A stretch of DNA of 64,000 bases from contig MU401586.1 in assembly GCA_022579005.1 (NCBI GenBank), positions 1-64,000 of the forward strand, in the 5' to 3' direction. The position numbers and the translations under genes were made by a program. Source of the DNA: Poronia punctata. Lineage: Eukaryota > Ascomycota > Sordariomycetes > Xylariales > Xylariaceae. The notes under the pieces were generated by a model. The model was not told the DNA's origin. It was given only the letters and a program-made list of their open reading frames with translations, and made no database searches. Below, in pieces: positions 40,239-61,174 of the stretch (positions within the stretch are counted from its first letter, which is position 1; every line of letters begins with the position of its first letter).

Positions 40239-43200
40239 ATGTCAAGGATGGCCGAGACATGTAAGACTCCAGTTGCTATCGTGGGCATGGCTTGCCGACT
40301 ACCCGGGCGATGCAGGAATCCCAGGGACCTTTGGGAGTTAATGAAGAATGGCAGAGTTGCTTCCAACGAGCCACCTGCAAGTCGCTTCAATATCAGTGGT
40401 CATTATGACTCCTCTCTTAAGCCATTCACAATGAAGACGCCCGGAGGGATGTTTATGGAACACGTCGACCCAGCCGACTTTGATGCTCCATTTTTCAACA
40501 TAAGCTTCGCAGATGCTATCTCTATGGATCCACAACAGAGGCTGCTGATGGAGGTATCTTATGAATGTCTCGAAAGCGCAGGCATAGCAAGGGAGAGTCT
40601 CGGTGGCAAGAAGATTGGTTGTATAATCGGAGCTAGCGCAGTTGGTGAGTGAGCTTTCAAAATCCTCGTGCCAGATCAGTTCTGTGAACCTCTCTATTGC
40701 GTCTATTGCGAACCGAGCCTAATTTCCTGATTGATGTGGAACAGACTACCAAGATATGGGGTGCAGGGACCCCGAGGATCGGGTCTTCTCTCCTACATTA
40801 GGTCTGAACCGGGCTCTTCTCAGCAACCGGATCAGCCACTTCTTCAACATACAAGGGCCGAGGTGAGTAAGTCTACTATCAGTCTACTACCAGTGCGTGC
40901 TAATATTTTAGGATAGCCTTACCGTTGATACTGCTTGCTCCAGCACTCTAATTGCCGTTGACCTTGCCTGCCTCTATCTCCAAAGTGGTCAAGCAGATGG
41001 GGTTTTGATTGGCGGTACAAATCTCTTCCTAAGTCCGGAACGGAATCAGGATATGGGCGCAATGCGCACTGCTGCCTCGGCCACGGGAAGATGTCACGTT
41101 TTTGATGTTGAAGCCGACGGCTACGTTACGGCAGAAGCGATTAACATGGTATACGTAAAAAGGCTGGACGATGCTGTCCGGGACAGGGATGCTATCCGGG
41201 CTGTTATTCTTGGCACCGCTTCTAACAGCTCCGGAAGGACCCCTGGCATCACTATGCCAAGCGCCGAGGCACAGGCAGCGGTTATACGAGCTTGCTATGC
41301 GAATGCGGGAATCCCAGTGGAACAATATAGTCAGACGGGCTACGTCGAGTGCCATGGGACCGGCACCTTGGCGGGGGACCCTATTGAAATCGCTGGCCTT
41401 TCGTTAACTTTTGGGCAATTTCGATCCGCCAGTGATCCTTTAATCATAGGCTCAGTAAAAGGCAACATTGGTCATTCTGAAGCAGCCGCGGGGCTGTCGG
41501 GACTCGTCAAGGCCGTGCTTGCAATCGAAAAAGGAGTCATCCCGGGAACAGCTACATTTATAACCCCAAACCCTGCAATCGACTTTGAAGGGGCCAAAGT
41601 CAGGGCATCGCGGCGATGGAGCCAATGGCCGTCTTCTTCCAAACGGAGAGCAAGCATCAACTCGTTCGGTTTCGGTGGTGCCAATGCCCATGTTGTAATC
41701 GAGTCCCCGGAATATTTGTTGCACGGCGTGGCTCCCTTTTACAAATCTACCTACCTGGACATGGACAAGATAGACGATGCGTTCTTCGAGGATGTCTGCA
41801 GCAGCGATGGACCTCAGTCCAAGGAAATAACCAAACCTTTGGTGCTTGTGGTGTCTGCAAACGACGAAAAGGCTCTAAAGGCGAGCGTTCACGCATTGTC
41901 ATCACATGTCATCAACCCCACAGTTGAGGTGTCTCTAGACGATCTAGCCTACACTCTGTCAGAGCGTCGAAGTAGGCTTCATCACCGTTCCTACAGCATA
42001 CGGAGGGGCCTAGAAGGGCTGTCAGCTGCATCTTTTGTTACAGGTAGCCGACCGCGGATTGGTGATGGGATACGGCTTGGCCTGGTCTTCAGCGGCCAGG
42101 GCGCGCAGTGGCCTATGATGGGCAGAGACATGATCCGGGAGTTGCCCCTTGCGAGGAAAACCATCGAGAGTCTCGATATGAGCCTGGCCGCACTCTCGGA
42201 ACCACCTGGATTCTCTCTGCTTCACCAGTTAACTGCGGACCTAGATCCCTTAGTGTTACGTGATCCGGTCATTTCCCAGCCTCTGACGACCGCTTTGCAA
42301 TTGGCTTATCTAGCTGTTCTATCCGACTGGGGAATCCGACCTCGGGCGGTGATTGGACATTCAAGTGGTGAGATTGCTGCGGCGGTGGCTGCCGGCTACC
42401 TCACAGCCCAAGAAGGCATACGGGTGGCATACCTACGCGGCCTAGCCATCAAACGGTCTTTGGTCGACGTACCACTCGGCATGCTTGCTGTTGGCCTCAT
42501 GAAAGAAGTCGCGCAGACCTATATATCTCACATCGACGATACTGCCCTGCAAATAGCTTGTTATAATAGCCCCAAGAGCGTCACCGTCTCCGGGCCTGTC
42601 AGTGCGCTGAAACAACTGCAGGAAAAGCTTCAGTTGGACGGACATTTTGCCCGTATGCTACAGGTTGACACGGCTTATCATTCGAAACACATTCACTCTT
42701 CCGGTCAACTGTACCGAGAACTTCTTCTCCGGCAATGTCCCACCAGTTGTTCCGGTAGCCACGAAATCGCCATGTATTCTACAGTTAATGGCACCCGGAT
42801 CAAAGAACCTATGAGTCTGGCCTACTGGGTCGACAACATGGTTTCACCCGTACAATTCAATGATGCGCTGTCTCAGATGATAGCTTCAGCCGAAAGAACC
42901 GGGTCCGATTCGGGTGTCAACTTTCTCGTTGAAGTTGGTCCCTCCAACACCCTTGCCGGACCCATTGCCCAAATCTTGGAATCCGAGTCCTTGAGGAAGG
43001 CCGCAGAGACCAACGAAAATCTGGATATTCCCTATTACCCGATTGCCAAACGAGGCCCCGACACTTTACTCTCCCTTTACCATGTGGCAGGGGCCGTCTT
43101 CGCGGCCGGCGGCCCAGTCGACTTCTCACGTGTGAACGAATACGGGATCGGAAAGCCACAGCCGTCCCTCCTTGTCGATCTACCGAGTTACACATGGACT

Positions 43201-46200
43201 CATTCCACCAAGTACTGGCACGAGGGACTGGCAAGCAGGGATTGGCGTTACCGTCAATTTCCACGACACGATCTCCTGGGATCGAAAATTCTGGGAACCA
43301 GTTGGAACTCGCCTACATGGCGTAACCGACTCAGTACCAAGGATATGCCTTGGCTAGTAGACCACAAGCTGGGCGAGCTTGTTGTCTTTCCTGGATCGGG
43401 ATATATCTGTATGGCCATGGAGGCGGCCTACCAGACAATGGCCATGGTGGAGTGGACGGACAAAGAACCTGATGCGTTTCAGTACCGGTTCAGAGACATC
43501 AAATTTACTCGAGCGCTCGTTTTGGATGAAGGTTCAGAAAATTCTCTCATCATGTTGAGCCTCTCGAAGACGTCTGTTCTCGCCGGATCATGGTACGAGT
43601 TCAAGATTCTATCCAACAAGGGGGCCATCGGGGAGGTGTGGCAAGACCACGCCACAGGGTTGGTACGATTGGAATCCGAGTTCACAAAGCATACGGCGTC
43701 TGAGGATATAACGGAGACACTGCACCAGCCAGTTTCCGCGGCACCGTGGTATAAATACACCAGCGAAGTCGGCTTTACCTATGGGCCGGCTTTCCAGAAG
43801 CATCTCACCATGGAATCCACTTCGGGACAACGCATCGGGCGATCCCATGTATCCATGGAGCCGCCTAGTTCGCCATGGAAACAATCACGCTACGTAATAC
43901 ATCCTGTATGCATGGACGGATGCTTTCAAACCGTTGTTGGCCCAGTTCATGCCGGCGACTATACATCCATGACTTCGGCATTGGTGCCGACTGGGATAAA
44001 AGTCCTGGTCATCCCGGCGAGAGCTCAGCAGCCAAGCGAAGCCATATCGCACGCCCGAGCGAATTATGCGGGTATAGGCAGGATGCAGCAGGCCAAGAAT
44101 TACTCCTGTGACTGCTCTGTGTATGACCCGAATGATGGCTCCTTGATCATGGACATGAGCGGACTGCGATTTTCGGAGCAGAATCCTTACCAGAACGCTA
44201 AGAAACCACAAGTGTACAGCCAGCTAATCTGGGATGTGGACATCTCAAAGATGACATACGAGATTGTCAACCATGTGGCCCAAGAAACAGTATCGGATCA
44301 GACAGCGAGGGGTGAAAGAGGTGGGGCTATGGTTGGACGATTCCTGGACTTGGTGGCCTTCAAGAAACCCAACCTTCGTGTTCTCGAAGTCAATTTGGAC
44401 TCGAGTGATGCTTCTAGCACGTGGCTAGATGAGCATCGAACTTATACCTCTGCCGGTATGCGAGCTGCGTTCTCGGGTTATGTATTCATGTCTGATGATG
44501 CAAACTCGATTGTTACCGTTCGAGATCGCTATGGGACCCCGCCAAACATAGAGTACATAATGGGTGATTTCGAGGAATCTGGACTGAATGTGGCTGGCCA
44601 GTTCGATCTCATCATCGTCAAATGTTGTGGTAGCCGCACTGGATGTCTGCATTCATACCACCATGTCCTGGAAAACATCAAGCTCGGTCTATCAGACGAC
44701 GGATTAGCAATACTCTGTCATGCTCAGAATGATGCAATCCGGGGTCCTTCTAATCTCGACCTGGAAGGGGATGATGCTCTCAGCATCTTCCAGTGGGAAG
44801 AATCTATTGCTATCATCCAACGACTACAGCCTAGGCCAAAGAGGGAGGAGGGCATATGCATCTCGAAGAATGTATACCTCGTCAGGATCGGAGAAGCAGA
44901 GCTAATACCACTGCAAAAGGGTCTTGCCAATGACACTTTATGGAATATGATTTGCCTTGAAGATCCGTTTCAAGTCCCACCACACAGTCAGGTGCTTATT
45001 GTCGACGAGCTCGAAAATGCCATCATATCGTCTCCAAGCCCACGTCAGTGGAATATTCTGAAGTACCTGATAGAATCCAGTTGTGCTATCCTTTGGGTCA
45101 CGAAAGGTGCACAGATGGAAGTCGACGAGCCTTCTCGGTCCACGATATTCGGCATGTTCCGCGTCATCCGTAATGAAGAACCACAGCTATCACTCATCAA
45201 TCTAGATGTTGAGAACGCATTTTCCCTAGCTACTATCCGCGCCATTGACGCGTGTCTCCTCAAACTTGGCAAGTCAAACCCCCTTGAAGATACCGAGTTT
45301 GTAGAGCGCCGGGGTATTATACACATTAGTCGTGTGTTCCCCGACACCCTTTTAAGCAATGAAAGTGCAGAAAGTCCGATGGGCCGAGCGCTTGAGCCCC
45401 GAAAATTACACGCCTCTAAAGAAACCATTCGGTTGAAAGCCGAGAGGGTTGGGGAGATAGACTCACTTTCCTATACTGAACACGCCCCTCAACTCCCGAG
45501 TCTTGCGCCTGGATTCGTCGAGATAGAAGTCAAAGCTGCGGGCGTGAACTTCAAAGATGTAGCTGCCGTGATTGGTATCATACCTGAGGACGAACATCGT
45601 CTGGGAGGGGAGGGAAGTGGAGTGATTTCCCGGGTAGCCTCAGACGTGACATGGTTCCAAGAGGGGCAACGCGTCGCCTTTTTCGCCAGAGGCGCATTTG
45701 GTAACCGAGTAAGGGCCAAGGCAGATCTGGTTCAGGAGATACCAAAGTCAATGAGCTTTGTGGAGGCGGCTACGATTCCCTGTGTGTATATGACGGCCGT
45801 CTACTCACTATTCCACCTCTGTCAGGTCAAGAAGGGTGATCGGGTTTTGATACATTCAGCTGCTGGCGGTGTCGGACTGGCTGCGGTCCAGATATGCCTT
45901 CATCTTGGTGCTATCGTGCGTTAATTCTTACTATGCCCCTCTTACCCTCCCTACGTATCAGGGCTTTTCCGTCACTAACAAGCTGTCCCTCTAGATATAC
46001 GCCACAGTCGGAACGCCAGAGAAACGTACCTTTCTCAAAATCCATTTTGACATCCCCGATAGTCGGATATTTTCATCGCGGAATACGTGTTTCGTAGACC
46101 AGATCTTCCATCACACGGGTGGTAAAGGTGTACACGTTATACTAAATTCATTAGCGGGCGACCTACTTGAAGCTTCTTGGAGCATCATTGCCGATAACGG

Positions 46201-47828
46201 AACCATGATAGAGATGGGCAAGAAGGACATAATCGAGAACAAAAGCCTGTCCCTGGAGCCGTTCTCTCGAGGAGCGACGTATCGCGCCTTCGACATGGGC
46301 ACAAGGAGCATTGACGACGATTTGAAGTCAAGGTAAGTAGACATTGAACTCGAAACACCATTCTGGAATGTTTCTGATTGCCATCTGATAACACAGGCTC
46401 CTAAAGAGAGTATTCGAGTTGCTGAACGATGGACACGTCAATCCCATCCCCAGGATCAACAAGTTCTCTTTTACTGATATCCCATCTGCTCTCAGAATGA
46501 TTCGCGGCGGCGGCCACATTGGAAAGGCGGTCATCTGCGATGACGGTAGCGACAATAATGACGACGTAACAGTGTTGGTTCGACCGTTCTCAAGGAGCAT
46601 GAGCATTTGTGCCGATAAAGCCTACTTGATCGTGGGCGGGTTGAAAGGAATCTGTGGGAAGCTAGCCGTCTATTTTGCGAGGAATGGTGCCAAGGATTTA
46701 AGTATTATGACAAGGAGCCGCTTTGATGACGAGTTATCTCAAAAAGCAGCCAGCGATATTAGGGCCTACGGCTGCCGGGTTCATCTTGTGCAAGGGGACG
46801 TGACATCGATCGACGATGTACGCGCAGCCTTTCATGCAAGCCATCCAGTGCCTGTGGGGGGAATCATCCATGGAGCCATGGTCCTTAGGGTAAGTTCCAA
46901 ACTCGGTAAAATCCACCAGCTTAAAATTGCGAGACATCTAGAACTAATGGTGCCCGTGTAGGATCGTACATTTGCCTCCATGACTTTAGACGAGTTCCAA
47001 GGGGCACTGGACTGCAAGGTCAAGGGAACATGGGCACTCCACACCGTCAGCATGGAACATGGTCCGAGTGTCGAGTTCTTTACCATGCTATCAAGTTTGT
47101 CCGGAGTATGCGGCACCAAGGGTCAAGCCAACTATGCAGCTGGGAGCGCATTCCTCGATGCATTCGCGTGCTATCGGCACCGACTTGGACTGCCAGCCTG
47201 CTCCTTGGACTTGGGGATTGTCGAAGACATCGGCTACATGGCCAATCACGAGGATGTGGCACAGCGGCACGACGAGTCCATCTGGCAGAGGCTAAATGAG
47301 AGGACTCTGCAGAGAGCCGTGGCCCTATCAGTTATCGAACAGCAACAGATCTCGGGTGCCCACATCATCAGTACGCGGAGCCGAACCCAGATTCTTACCG
47401 GCATGCACGTGCCGCAACCAGAAAACTCGCCGCTCCTGCTAGACGCCAGATTCCTTGGACTCCACATAGCCGACGTATCCAGCATGTTGACGAAACCCAA
47501 GTCGAACGCCATGACCAGGGAGGGCGTCAAGAAAGAGGTACAGGTGGTCCTGACAGCCATCCGCTCCAATACCAAGCCGCAGCCGGTCCTGCTCTCAATG
47601 GCCGTCAAGATTTTGGGCCACTACCTGTCCAAGGGCCTCAGACTGTCGGATCCGTTGGACCCGACGAGGCCCCTGTCTATCTACGGCATTGACTCCTTGG
47701 CTGCCGTAGAGTTTAGGAACTTCATCAAAATGGAGTTCGGCGTTGAAATTAGCGCGCTGGAGATTGTGGACGCATCGTCACTCAACGTGCTGTGCGAAAA
47801 GATGATTGACAGGATCAAGAGAAGCTGA
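40239..47828 (+). CDS. Highly reducing type I polyketide synthase, 6 exons
   Basis: Iterative HR-PKS of 2406 residues. Exons: 40239-40644, 40745-40862, 40917-45915, 45995-46332, 46397-46889, 46962-47828; all introns (54-100 nt) join in frame and rebuild conserved motifs. Domains: KS with Cys182 (VDTACSS), HGTGT and [10 protein letters not shown] with GHSSGE (Ser657); DH with His991 ([12 protein letters not shown]) and Asp1175; a methyltransferase-like stretch at about 1290-1480; ER with VNFKDV and [10 protein letters not shown] from about 2029 with Ser2163 and Tyr2176; C-terminal ACP with phosphopantetheine Ser2363 (GIDSL). No thioesterase or other release domain follows. Odd points: the SAM motif I is destroyed (VLEVNLDSS near 1330), the DH motif has Glu where HxxxG expects Gly, and the KR nucleotide loop reads [14 protein letters not shown] and ACP look intact. 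The product should be a reduced aliphatic chain, probably without C-methylation. Confidence 0.96.
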
Positions 47829-48366: not shown

Positions 48367-51300
48367 AACCGACCTATTAATACAAAAGATAAATAGAACC
48401 GCAAAGTCTAGGACAACATTTCGTTGTGGTTGGCCCTCCCCGAATATCCTCTATTATCATCTACATGTTGATAATGTATCAAGTGCTCTGCGCTATTTGT
48501 GACCGTTGGTGGGTGCGTATCGACTGGAGTGTAGACTTGCGTGAGAATAGTATGTCGCCGCCATCTTCGCGCTAGTTAAATAGATATTGAGGGGGCCCCG
48601 GGTTCTACGTAATCATCATATGTGACTTAAGGCAATCATGCACGCCAAAGCATACCTACTTATGCCATGTTTTCCGACTTAACTACCAGGACAGTAAAGA
48701 TGACCGATCAACATCAGATTCACAACTTCCTCAATACCTACCACTCTATTATATACACGTCTCATGATATCATGTCTTTTGTTTTCCCACTACCAAGCTG
48801 ACTTACGCAGAGCAACATGGGGGCAGCCAATATCTCCAGCTCCTGTTTCATCTATTTAACATTTTTTTTGCTTCCGCCTTGCTTACTCAGGAGGACATTG
48901 AACGTGTGTCGTCAGACAATCCCTACTATATGTTCATTCGCCGAGAAAAACCGTCGTGTACGGTAGACTTCAAGTAAGCGCAAGACCGGAATGGCAAGTT
49001 GCCAAACATGAAACTTGTTTCGGCCGCCGACCCTTCAGCCCCCTAGGGACCTTTCCTTGCTATCAAAGTAGGAGAGATATATGTATAGCCATGTACGCGC
49101 TTCTCTCTACCCAAGTATATCGTCGTCGTTTGGTAGCCACTTTGGGGGCAATATGCGTCCTTTTTTTCAACATCAACCGAAAAAGCACGCAAGTAGTTTA
49201 AAAAGGGGGATTACGTATAACGTCGCATGCATATATACATTCCATCCATCGTTCCAAGGGGCCTGTCGAATCTATCTCTAACAGCTGAAGAACCACGGTT
49301 TATTGTGCAACTTGGGGGTTGGGGGTTGAAGGCAAAGATCGTCTTACTGATGGCGCACACATGCAAAGAGGATAACCAGATGAGCGGCTAAAATCGGGGG
49401 CTAGAGAGAACCAGCAAGATTTTGCTGTGTCGCTCTATATCTTGTACATAAAACAGTACGCGAATGTCAGCTTTCATTCCATTCCATTTCAAGCACAACA
49501 ACAATGGAAAACGCGTTGTCCCAGTCTCAGCCATGTGCCTTGTGTCATGCTGCCTCGGTGCAATCATCCGCCACCCCAGTCGCATAAGTCCCACGCATCA
49601 TTTGGTAGAAAAACCGCCGAATGCTACCTTACCGGCCGACTGCTTATTATGTATGCGCCAATGCCACGTCCAATCCAGTCCCGTGGAACAGAGTATCATG
49701 GCTCAGCTCAGGGAGGGCCTGGTATGGATCCTTTATTTTTTAGATACTTGTTTGAAATGCTATTATCAACATATAGTCCGAGTCAACCCAGTTGCAGACC
49801 TACTCTCTTGTATGTCTATATATAAGGTACCCAGCTTGTTGGAAAATAAGAATTTTGTGCTTTTTCTGCCGGGCGTTTAAGAGTCTAAGGATGGTGATCA
49901 GGTCTATCCATCTAGTCTTGAAAACATGGAAAAAGGGATGTTATGATCATGTTCAATATGTGTTGATCTTTAACATGATTTGCCCTTTCCGTGTGACCCG
50001 GTCGCAATCTTGCTTTCAACAAAACTTGTGACTTCTAGCAAGACTCGATTTGGAGACATGCCCCGGTACCCCCATATTCGCCCTTATTCATTATCTTCTC
50101 GGGGGGGAATGCTTTAAACCTAAAACCTCTCTGATCAAGTCGGCGCTGAAATGTCACCAGACAATGGACTTGTCCTCCAACATTACTAGGACCAGATAAA
50201 AAAGCGCAAACAGTATGCAACTATAAAAAGAAGGAAACAACTAAAAAGCGATGATAAACATCACAGAAAAAACATACAACACCAGGGATTCGCTGGTCGT
50301 CACCGACCCAACTACTGATCTGGCGGTATCCGGCTTAGCTATGGGGGAGCGGACGGGACCCCGCGTTCTCCAGATCCTATGGTCGTATGTGATTACTCTC
50401 TGCACAGATATGGTTTATATACGCGAAAGACGGTTGGTCACAAGAATGGGGATGCGAGAAATTAACATACTCGTACCTGCTACCTTATTTATTTCGATTC
50501 CCTTACATTTAAACCCTCGCCACTTAGGTATATCGAGTCTATTTGCCAGCCGGCGGCATAAGAAGCTTTAATCTTTCTCACTCGTACAACAAGAGAGCGC
50601 CTAACCTATGCCTGGAGGGCAGACATCAGTTGAAATTCCACATTGTCCAGCCACTTCCCCCATCGGCCTCCGGTCATCTAATCTAATACCCCTCACGCCG
50701 CCGCCACCACAAAACACCCAAGCCCACTTCCACATCTAAATTGCAGGTAACGGCAGGCGATAATGCGCCCTGCCAGTTGGACATTTGGGGGAGGACAATA
50801 AAACGTCCACCTAATTAACATCTAATTATCCAGTAGCACAACCCACCTGTCAGAGTCTCAAGTAGATATTACCTAAGTACCTTAGGTTAGGTCGGTGCTA
50901 ATTAAACATTCTAACAATAACCTAGGTCTGAGCGTTTGAAAACGCGATCGATCAAGCCCGCAAGATGACTAGTTACCTACAGATAAACCGCCGTTTTGTA
51001 TCAGGAGACTCGATTAGCAACACCTACAAGAGATCATTTCCTACAATCCTTGATTACCCCGGAAAACCTACCTATACTTTTAAGGTGTTGCCTGTCTACC
51101 CCACCACATCCTTCATCCCCGCTAGGTTAAGACTAGGTTAGTGCAAGAGCGGGGATAGAGTCTTCGGGACTCGCGCGACACGGCAACGGGAGTGGCGGCA
51201 GCTAAATCATCCACTAACCAAGGTACATGATAGATCTCGAATCCTGCGGACAAGGGCAAGCAAATATCATCAGGTAAATTAAGAGCATGTACCTAAATAT

Positions 51301-59056: not shown

Positions 59057-59193
59057 GCCCGGTTAGCTCAATCGGTAGAGCGTGAGACTCTTAATCTCAA
59101 GGTTGCGGGTAAGTCATGGAAAATAGTATGGTCGGCCACGAGCAAACCGAAAAACTAACAGAAGTTGAATAGGTTCGACCCCCGCATTGGGCT
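59057..59193 (+). tRNA. tRNA-Lys (anticodon CTT) interrupted in the T-arm
   Basis: The cloverleaf is clear: acceptor GCCCGGT (59057-59063) pairs with ATTGGGC (59186-59192); D-arm GCTC/GAGC; anticodon stem TGAGA/TCTCA around loop CTCTTAA with anticodon CTT (59090-59092); discriminator T. The T-stem GCGGG ends at 59109, but its loop TTCGACC starts only at 59174. The intervening 64 nt have spliceosomal-intron signals and are listed separately. There is no insertion next to the anticodon, where eukaryotic nuclear tRNA introns normally lie. The A box TAGCTCAATCGG (59064-59075) and B box GGTTCGACC (59172-59180) are both intact, so Pol III transcription is possible. Whether a functional tRNA is made depends on removal of the insert. 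Confidence 0.85.
59109..59172 (+). other. Spliceosomal-type intron candidate inside the tRNA-Lys gene
   Basis: 64 nt: donor GTAAGT at 59109, branch-point CTAAC at 59155-59159, acceptor AATAG ending at 59172, with the branch A 14 nt from the end. These match the protein-gene introns in this window, such as GTAAGT with CTAAC. Excision joins G59108 to G59173 and restores a perfect five-pair T-stem with a standard seven-base loop. The last G also completes the B box. An equivalent cut one base later is possible because both junctions share G. Confidence 0.75.
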
Positions 59194-59234
59194 CAATTCC
59201 TGATGCTCCCTGACTCTGTAGGGACTCAACCATC

Positions 59235-59242
59235 TTTTTTTT
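59235..59242 (+). terminator. Pol III terminator of the tRNA gene
   Basis: Run of eight T on the sense strand 42 bp after the discriminator base. It is the first T-run of four or more downstream. Confidence 0.7.
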
Positions 59243-59941: not shown

Positions 59942-61174
59942 CTAACCAGACTTGTTCTTATCCTGAGCCAATTCCTTGAGCGCCTGGCTTCCCCACTGCG
60001 TCTGGTTAAGCGTGAGCGCGGAATAGACGTTCAAGAACCCATGGGCATAGCCGAAAAGGATGGACGCGGGCACGTAGACGAGATCCTGCGGGTATCGGCA
60101 GAAATGCGGCACAAGCTTGACAATCTTGAGGAAGAAGATCCAAATGGCGAGAGCCAGATAGCAAGCCGTGGCGTCGATGTCCATGTCGCGAATCATGTAG
60201 CGCAGAGCAAGGAAGACGAGCAAGTCCCAGATGAGCGAGGGAGTCTGGAACTGCGAGGCGTAGATGTAGTAGAAGCCCCAGATGTGGCGGGGTGAGAACC
60301 AGTATGTCTCGGTGGACATGACTGTGAAGTTTCCCCGCCAGTGGGCGCGGGCCCAGCGGAGACATTGCGCGATGTACAGGTGTCCGGACTCGACTGTTGT
60401 CTCGATGGTGGCGCGACGGTCGGGTTGGATGGCGATTTTCCAGCCTTGGGCGTAGACGTACCGGGTGAGGCACTTGTCGTCGTCGGAGTTGAGCCGTTGG
60501 CCGTTCCAGGAATCGTTGCGGAAGTAATCCATGAAGTCTTCAGATTGGAGGATTTTGGTGCGGTAGGCTGCTGTTCGGCCGGAGAGAGTGGAGATGGAGC
60601 CGTCGAGGACATTGGTGGCGAGATTATTCCAGACTCGACGCTCGAGGTAGCCGATTCCGAGGAAGTTCCAGAAATCAGGGTTGTCGTTGCGACGGACGCG
60701 TTGACGGGGGCCGCCTGCGCCGACATTGGGGTCCTCGAAGACGGCGAGGAGATAGTCGAGGAAGCGAGGGGGCCAGAAGACGTCGTCGTCGGCAAGGACA
60801 CTGATAGGGGTGCGAATCTCGGGCAAGACCTTGAGGATCTGTTCGCGCTTATGAAGAGCTGGGATGCCGAGGACTTTGACTTTGATGGAGTTATCACGAC
60901 AGTACTTGGCAATATTGTCGACGTTAGCATCAGCCGTGACGATGAGGATGGCGGCAGGGGAGCAGGCCGTGATAGTTTGCAGACACTTGAGCAAATTCTC
61001 GGGACTCTTAAAGGTTGTTGGGATTACGACCGAGACATCTTGTCCGGTGTACTTGGGTGTCTCCTGGATGGGAATCGGCTTGGAGAGCATGTAAGTCGGG
61101 ATAGCCACGACTGCTCGGACATACCGAAAGGCAAAGACTCCGGCGAAAAGCGCGGTTGCAGCTGTGTTAGGCAT
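59942..61174 (-). CDS. Family 2 glycosyltransferase (hyphal polysaccharide synthase type)
   Basis: Single-exon gene of 410 residues. It encodes a processive-type membrane glycosyltransferase that would polymerise or transfer a sugar from a nucleotide donor. An N-terminal hydrophobic segment (about 8-30) precedes the GT-A core with VSVVIPTTFKS. The donor/metal site is ADDDV (Asp129-131), the second acidic cluster SDDDK is at 230-234, and the acceptor/product motif QCLRW is at 270-274, the QxxRW of hyaluronan, chitin and cellulose synthases. Three or four membrane helices follow from about 300. It resembles the fungal GT2 protein reported as needed for hyphal growth on surfaces in Zymoseptoria and Fusarium, and the Cps1-like group (from memory). 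The sugar is unknown. A TATA-like element lies about 170 bp upstream. Confidence 0.93.
   Translation of the reverse strand: MPNTAATALFAGVFAFRYVRAVVAIPTYMLSKPIPIQETPKYTGQDVSVVIPTTFKSPENLLKCLQTITACSPAAILIVTADANVDNIAKYCRDNSIKVKVLGIPALHKREQILKVLPEIRTPISVLADDDVFWPPRFLDYLLAVFEDPNVGAGGPRQRVRRNDNPDFWNFLGIGYLERRVWNNLATNVLDGSISTLSGRTAAYRTKILQSEDFMDYFRNDSWNGQRLNSDDDKCLTRYVYAQGWKIAIQPDRRATIETTVESGHLYIAQCLRWARAHWRGNFTVMSTETYWFSPRHIWGFYYIYASQFQTPSLIWDLLVFLALRYMIRDMDIDATACYLALAIWIFFLKIVKLVPHFCRYPQDLVYVPASILFGYAHGFLNVYSALTLNQTQWGSQALKELAQDKNKSG

Follow-up and report, generated by a model that had tools for sequence, protein, structure and literature searches.

Splicing by the spliceosome usually goes hand in hand with Pol II transcription, and rRNA is made by Pol I. 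In fission yeast the gene for U6, a Pol III gene, is described as being spliced from an mRNA-type intron (PMC10484740), and spliceosomal introns are reported in the 18S rRNA genes of ascomycetes (PMC11889510, citing Cubero 2000 and Bhattacharya 2000). For tRNA genes, a review (PMC4090602) describes noncanonical introns outside the anticodon loop, at 53/54 and at other T-arm sites among others, in archaea, nucleomorphs and Cyanidioschyzon merolae; the splicing mode of those in nucleomorphs is given there as unknown, and T-arm insertions in eukaryotes, nucleomorphs and C. merolae excepted, are treated as mostly supposed pseudogenes.

Against this background we analyzed a tRNA-Lys(CTT) gene of the fungus Poronia punctata that is interrupted in its T-arm, located in a 64,000-nucleotide stretch of nuclear DNA (the window). 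In our reading of the sequence the gene probably belongs to a dispersed nuclear tRNA-Lys(CTT) subfamily that carries a short U2-type (GT-AG) spliceosomal intron and is matured via the spliceosome. The likeness to fission yeast U6 lies in a spliceosomal intron within a noncoding gene transcribed by Pol III (PMC10484740). On the other hand, U6 is itself a part of the spliceosome and its intron lies near the catalytic bases, whereas here the interrupted gene encodes a tRNA and is multi-copy, and reverse splicing offers no ready explanation; U6 in this genome gave a single match with the whole model contained in 100 bases, and is thus without an insert. The ascomycete 18S rRNA introns are alike in being spliceosomal introns of structural RNA genes (PMC11889510), but they sit in Pol I rRNA genes and not in a tRNA gene. 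The noncanonical introns of archaea and C. merolae possess bulge-helix-bulge (BHB) motifs (PMC4090602), whereas those described here have no BHB and instead carry a 5' splice site, a branch site and a terminal AG. Canonical anticodon-loop introns are also present in this genome, for example in tRNA-Lys(TTT), and differ from the T-arm introns in both position and signals. The original prediction named no described case in a nuclear tRNA gene, and our search of the open literature, a body from which most subscription papers and bioRxiv fall away, agrees in that none was reported among the matches listed. We therefore found no earlier report of an mRNA-type intron in a nuclear tRNA gene, and priority is not proven.

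The interrupted gene occupies positions 59057-59193 of the plus strand, as is evident on direct reading of the sequence, and the same interval reaches 49.5 bits with the Rfam tRNA model. Exon 1 (59057..59108) supplies tRNA positions 1-52, including the A box TAGCTCAATCGG (59064-59075) and the anticodon CTT (59090-59092), and exon 2 (59173..59193) supplies positions 53-73, that is, the remaining T-arm and the 3' strand of the acceptor. Between them lies a 64-nt intron of spliceosomal type (59109..59172) with the 5' splice site GTAAGT (59109-59114), a candidate branch site CTAAC (59155-59159) and the 3' splice site TAG (59170-59172). The split of the T-arm by an insert bearing these three signals, as originally predicted, is thus borne out by both the sequence and Rfam. 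Its placement between T-stem and T-loop was right as to the T-arm and needs a small correction as to the exact site: by its GT-AG borders the intron falls between positions 52 and 53, a single base into the T-stem, while the Rfam model puts the insert in the T-loop. Owing to a repeated G, the 52/53 and 53/54 placements are indistinguishable from sequence alone. Excision in silico restores a perfect T-arm and cloverleaf, as had been claimed. ARAGORN found no tRNA in the window, which is expected if the insert breaks that program's model of the T-arm.

All of the features of a Pol III gene (A box, B box and T-run terminator) are present. Both boxes had been said to survive the insertion, and they do, the B box GGTTCGACC (59172-59180) by virtue of the first G being the last base of the intron (59172); it is complete before splicing because this G stands in for position 52. 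The distance between the boxes grows from 44 nt to 103-110 nt in eight intact intron-bearing genes, and to 136 nt in a ninth, C43. A run of eight T residues (59235..59242) is the candidate Pol III terminator.

The assembly from which the window derives (45.05 Mb in 573 contigs) was searched with two probes: a 35-base probe from exon 1, allowing up to 3 mismatches, matched at 14 places, and a 22-base probe from the 3' end, allowing up to 2, at 15, the additional one being on C43. Fifteen tRNA-Lys(CTT) genes were found in all, nine with an intron at the identical site and six without. The earlier assumption of a single interrupted gene was accordingly correct about the interruption and not about the number, which is that of a subfamily of nine. 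The intron-bearing genes are two on C8 (introns of 61 and 65 nt), one each on C14 (66 nt), C20 (59 nt), C77 (62 nt), C84 (64 nt), C96 (65 nt) and C133 (64 nt, the window copy), and C43 (91 nt), so that the eight intact copies have introns of 59-66 nt; the intronless genes are C4, C30, C117, C200, C206 and C270. Exon 1 is identical in 14 of the 15 genes, the exception being C43 with one extra base in the D-arm, and all 73 exon bases are identical in eight of the nine intron-bearing copies. Position 68 is T in all nine of these and in C270, and C in five of the six intronless genes. Hence C270 (12024-12096; L006, L057) encodes directly, without an intron, the RNA that splicing would yield from the intron-bearing genes, and judged by its sequence may represent either intron loss or the ancestral pre-intron state. 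C43 (393-414 plus the 5' half; L041, L058), with its extra D-arm base, 91-nt intron and poor trailer hairpin, is probably a decaying copy.

The splice signals are held in common across the nine introns. The 5' splice site is GTRAGY in 9/9, the two departures from GTAAGT being GTGAGT and GTAAGC, and all nine end in AG (TAG in eight, AAG in one). A YTRAY motif whose branch A stands 13-17 nt from the final intron base is present in 8/9 introns, as against 0.9/9 in shuffled interiors, and none of 20000 shuffled sets scored as high (the range tested, 13-21, having been picked after a first look); the exact CTAAC occurs in 5/9, as against 0.11 expected in shuffles, and the C77 intron has CTAAG in place of YTRAY. 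For a set of 2022 introns from Fusarium core genes, the published figures are G|GTRAGT at the 5' splice site, CTRAY in 91% and TTRAY in 4-5% at the branch, and YAG|R in 94% at the 3' end (PMC5677156). The signals of the tRNA introns agree with these figures, by which GTGAGT and GTAAGC count as common mRNA variants (PMC5677156). Candidate mRNA introns in the window also resemble the tRNA introns (31, as against 21 in the reversed control), and those with strong signals number 10, as against 0 in the reversed control, or 8 once two alternative ends are removed. Compared with this set of only 8 candidate mRNA introns, the tRNA introns are richer in A (39.9% vs 28.0%, p 0.004) and poorer in C (17.6% vs 23.6%, p 0.002), and the U-depletion that an adaptation to Pol III might bring was not seen (T 26.7% vs 28.8%, p 0.48). 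The C8a intron contains TTTT, which might act as a weak Pol III stop.

Given that noncanonical T-arm introns are known in archaea and Cyanidioschyzon (PMC4090602), we considered whether the inserts might similarly be cut by the tRNA endonuclease and joined by ligase. No BHB was found at either register: with the GT-AG borders 3/4 central pairs form (4/4 in C14), with 1/3 outer and 0-2 of 2 inner pairs, and at the next register 1/4 central, 2/3 outer and 1-2 of 2 inner. The introns lie at 52/53 and not at 37/38, the GTRAGY, branch site and AG are left unexplained by that pathway, and in four loci for other tRNAs that also contain introns (L015, L020, L021, L022) the insert is in the anticodon loop. 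Endonuclease cutting is in our judgment highly improbable. Group I and II introns have a catalytic core and run to hundreds of nucleotides; inserts of 59-91 nt are too short for a self-splicing intron of either kind, and this candidate was rejected. It is the combination of the signals with the elimination of other intron classes that points to the spliceosome as the agent of removal.

The question of whether the interrupted genes are alive was approached through the DNA in and around them. The intron interiors are barely alignable, with 8/36 pairs reaching a shuffle z of at least 2 (C43 included) and the best pairs reaching 4.3, 3.6 and 3.5. Scraps are nevertheless shared between introns, for example ACATGTTCA in three copies, and such scraps suggest common descent of the introns, with the consequence that the nine are not nine independent cases. 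When about 3 kb at each of the 15 loci (1.9 kb for C43) were compared, with the gene and the first 60 bases of the trailer masked, the flanks gave a single match, of 20 bases, at E <= 0.001. The exons are identical while introns and flanks have diverged, and thus the exons stayed fixed, and the splice signals were kept, as the surrounding DNA turned over. Short-tract gene conversion could partly account for the exon identity, although very short tracts would be needed.

The original prediction had offered three options: a true spliceosomal intron, an introner-like insertion or a dead tRNA copy. A lone dead copy is excluded by eight intron-bearing copies with identical, intact exons in the midst of diverged introns and flanks. 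Another form of the idea is a dead family, in which one insertion killed a tRNA-Lys gene and the dead copies spread, being kept alike by gene conversion. The intronless genes could then supply the tRNA, C43 is visibly damaged, and the reviewed T-arm insertions of eukaryotes mostly affect one of many synonymous copies and are supposed pseudogenes (PMC4090602). However, conversion tracts would have to be confined to a 21-base exon with diverged sequence on both sides, no intron sequence being transferred. Position 68 is T in all nine intron genes and C in five of the six intronless ones; moreover, eight copies have no exon change and every splice site has been kept. Pseudogene signs (decayed stem, loop or promoter bases) are absent from these eight, C43 alone having the extra D-arm base. 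We regard the dead family as improbable. Of the circumstances that had been said to indicate a pseudogene, it holds that other copies could supply the cell, and with six intronless genes the cell need not depend on splicing for its tRNA-Lys(CTT); decay of the window copy was not seen within this genome.

The remaining option, recent spread of an introner-like or other mobile insertion, would account for many copies at one site. However, a search of the 45-Mb assembly with the window's 64-nt insert alone as query, very common words being skipped, matched only the insert itself, the nine intron interiors are far from identical, and the inserts found are all in one gene family and at one site. 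We give this reading almost no weight. Among the three options the kept signals and the eight identical exon sets favor, strongly so by comparison within this one genome, the true spliceosomal intron.

All 15 genes, with or without the intron, share a downstream layout that begins with CAATTCCYRATGY and continues with a hairpin and then a T run. The T run, of 5-11 residues, lies 32-51 nt downstream in 15/15 genes, while in 35 other tRNAs of the genome a T4 begins at a median of 16 nt (38 loci were fetched, and L080, L082 and L089, with two tRNA matches each, were left out). Its presence after every gene is consistent with Pol III transcription. In the window copy the conserved trailer element CAATTCCTGATGC occupies 59194..59206, in the same register in 15/15 genes, and the motif CAATTCC is invariant across the family. 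On its own the trailer motif has 16 exact places in the genome, 14 adjoining tRNA-Lys(CTT) and 2 without a tRNA by eye, as against 2 in the reversed control; three tRNA-Lys(TTT) genes, compared over the first 30 bases downstream, showed no such trailer.

The hairpin (59207..59224, with arms 59207-59213 and 59218-59224) has 7/7 pairs, G-U included, in 13/15 genes, 6/7 in the window copy and 3/7 in C43. Ten different 5' arms occur, and none of 5000 re-pairings of arms among the copies matched the observed pairing, so that the arms covary in 14/15 trailers. RNAalifold on a MAFFT alignment of the trailers returned no structure; the arms were counted directly because loops of unequal length misalign them. 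As a comparative result the hairpin is well supported.

Beyond the hairpin, the trailer segment CCTGATGC is able to form 8 base pairs, counting G-U, with GCATTGGG of exon 2. In general form CCYRATGY of the trailer faces GCATYGGG of the tRNA 3' end in the same register in 15/15 genes, and neither the difference at position 68 nor those in the trailer disrupt the pairing. This is weaker evidence than the hairpin, because the copies share descent and because an 8-pair helix also arises somewhere in 88/2000 shuffled trailers, and one of at least 8 in that stretch in 4/35 other tRNAs. A further element, CAACC (59227..59231), is complementary to GGTTG of the variable loop and T-stem; CAACC or CAGCC (CAACT in C43) is found in the nine intron genes, C270 and C117, and not in C4, C30, C200 or C206. 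Folding predicts an alternative structure better than the cloverleaf by 0.5-4.2 kcal/mol in 7/8 spliced intron precursors and 2/6 intronless precursors; for the window copy the cloverleaf is predicted better by 1.3 kcal/mol, and C43 was outside the fold test. The evidence for pairing of the trailer with the tRNA is suggestive.

A structured trailer, longer than in most of the 35 other tRNAs, together with the usual coupling of splicing to Pol II, would suit a different product, namely a noncoding RNA that is made by Pol II and spliced, and that has a domain resembling a tRNA but does not function as one. Against this, the exons make up a perfect tRNA complete with promoter boxes, every copy is followed by a T run, and the intronless copies have a trailer of the same kind, and we consider such an RNA quite improbable.

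If, as we favor, these are tRNA genes matured by the spliceosome, Pol III, guided by the intact A and B boxes, would transcribe leader, exon 1, intron, exon 2 and trailer and stop at the T run. The GUAAGU and CUAAC of the precursor would be recognized by the U1 and U2 snRNPs, and the spliceosome would join the tRNA halves and so restore the T-arm. Processing by RNase P and tRNase Z and the addition of CCA would then give a normal tRNA-Lys(CUU) for use in translation. A more elaborate proposal, which we think unlikely as it stands, is that in replacing the tRNA endonuclease the spliceosome is assisted by the conserved trailer. By engaging exon 2 and the variable loop in an alternative structure, the trailer would keep the T-arm splice sites open and delay end processing until after splicing, linking the supply of lysine tRNA to spliceosome activity. 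Any role of the trailer in splicing is speculation because the intronless genes share it.

Were spliceosomal maturation confirmed, the tRNA endonuclease would not be alone in splicing nuclear tRNA: the spliceosome would be processing a Pol III tRNA precursor, and would have to recognize its splice sites within a tightly folded RNA. Genes interrupted in the T-arm, of the kind missed by ARAGORN and mostly held to be pseudogenes in the review, could then be functional tRNA genes, and the family would offer a natural system of many copies in which to study how introns are gained, lost and constrained outside coding DNA.

A genome scan for T-arm inserts, suggested with the original prediction, yielded tRNA-Lys(CTT) genes and, by pattern, no other tRNA at the same site. 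The pattern GTRAGT-N{45,70}-AGGTTCGA occurs at 16 places (22 in the reversed control), 7 of them tRNA-Lys(CTT), and CTRAY-N{6,18}-AGGTTCRANNC at 27 (26 in the reversed control), 6 of them tRNA-Lys(CTT); by a simple text test none of the remaining places has an A-box-like stretch together with an upstream 5' splice site. These patterns cover one insertion site, and of the 2574 candidates for the Rfam tRNA scan 63 were scored. The family patterns had no match in viral and prokaryotic contigs, the expected outcome for a gene of a fungus.

At gathering score Rfam reported only tRNA and 5S rRNA in the window, the latter being its only Rfam rRNA gene (50271-50390, minus strand); 5.8S rRNA was not found in the assembly. 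Positions 1-36000 are very AT-rich (14.8 to 39% GC per 4 kb, the adjoining DNA having 45 to 52%), perhaps a repeat-mutated block. Two open frames at 41005-47828 have the polyketide synthase domains KS, AT, DH, an ADH_N stretch, KR and ACP, and are interpreted as a single gene for a highly reducing polyketide synthase. A glycosyltransferase (59942-61174) adjoins the tRNA gene, its best named relatives being ten Xylaria proteins of 60 to 65% identity (among the best 120 of 327); this one gene would probably place the host in the Xylariales (Sordariomycetes). Frames for a P450 and a berberine-type oxidase lie elsewhere in the window.
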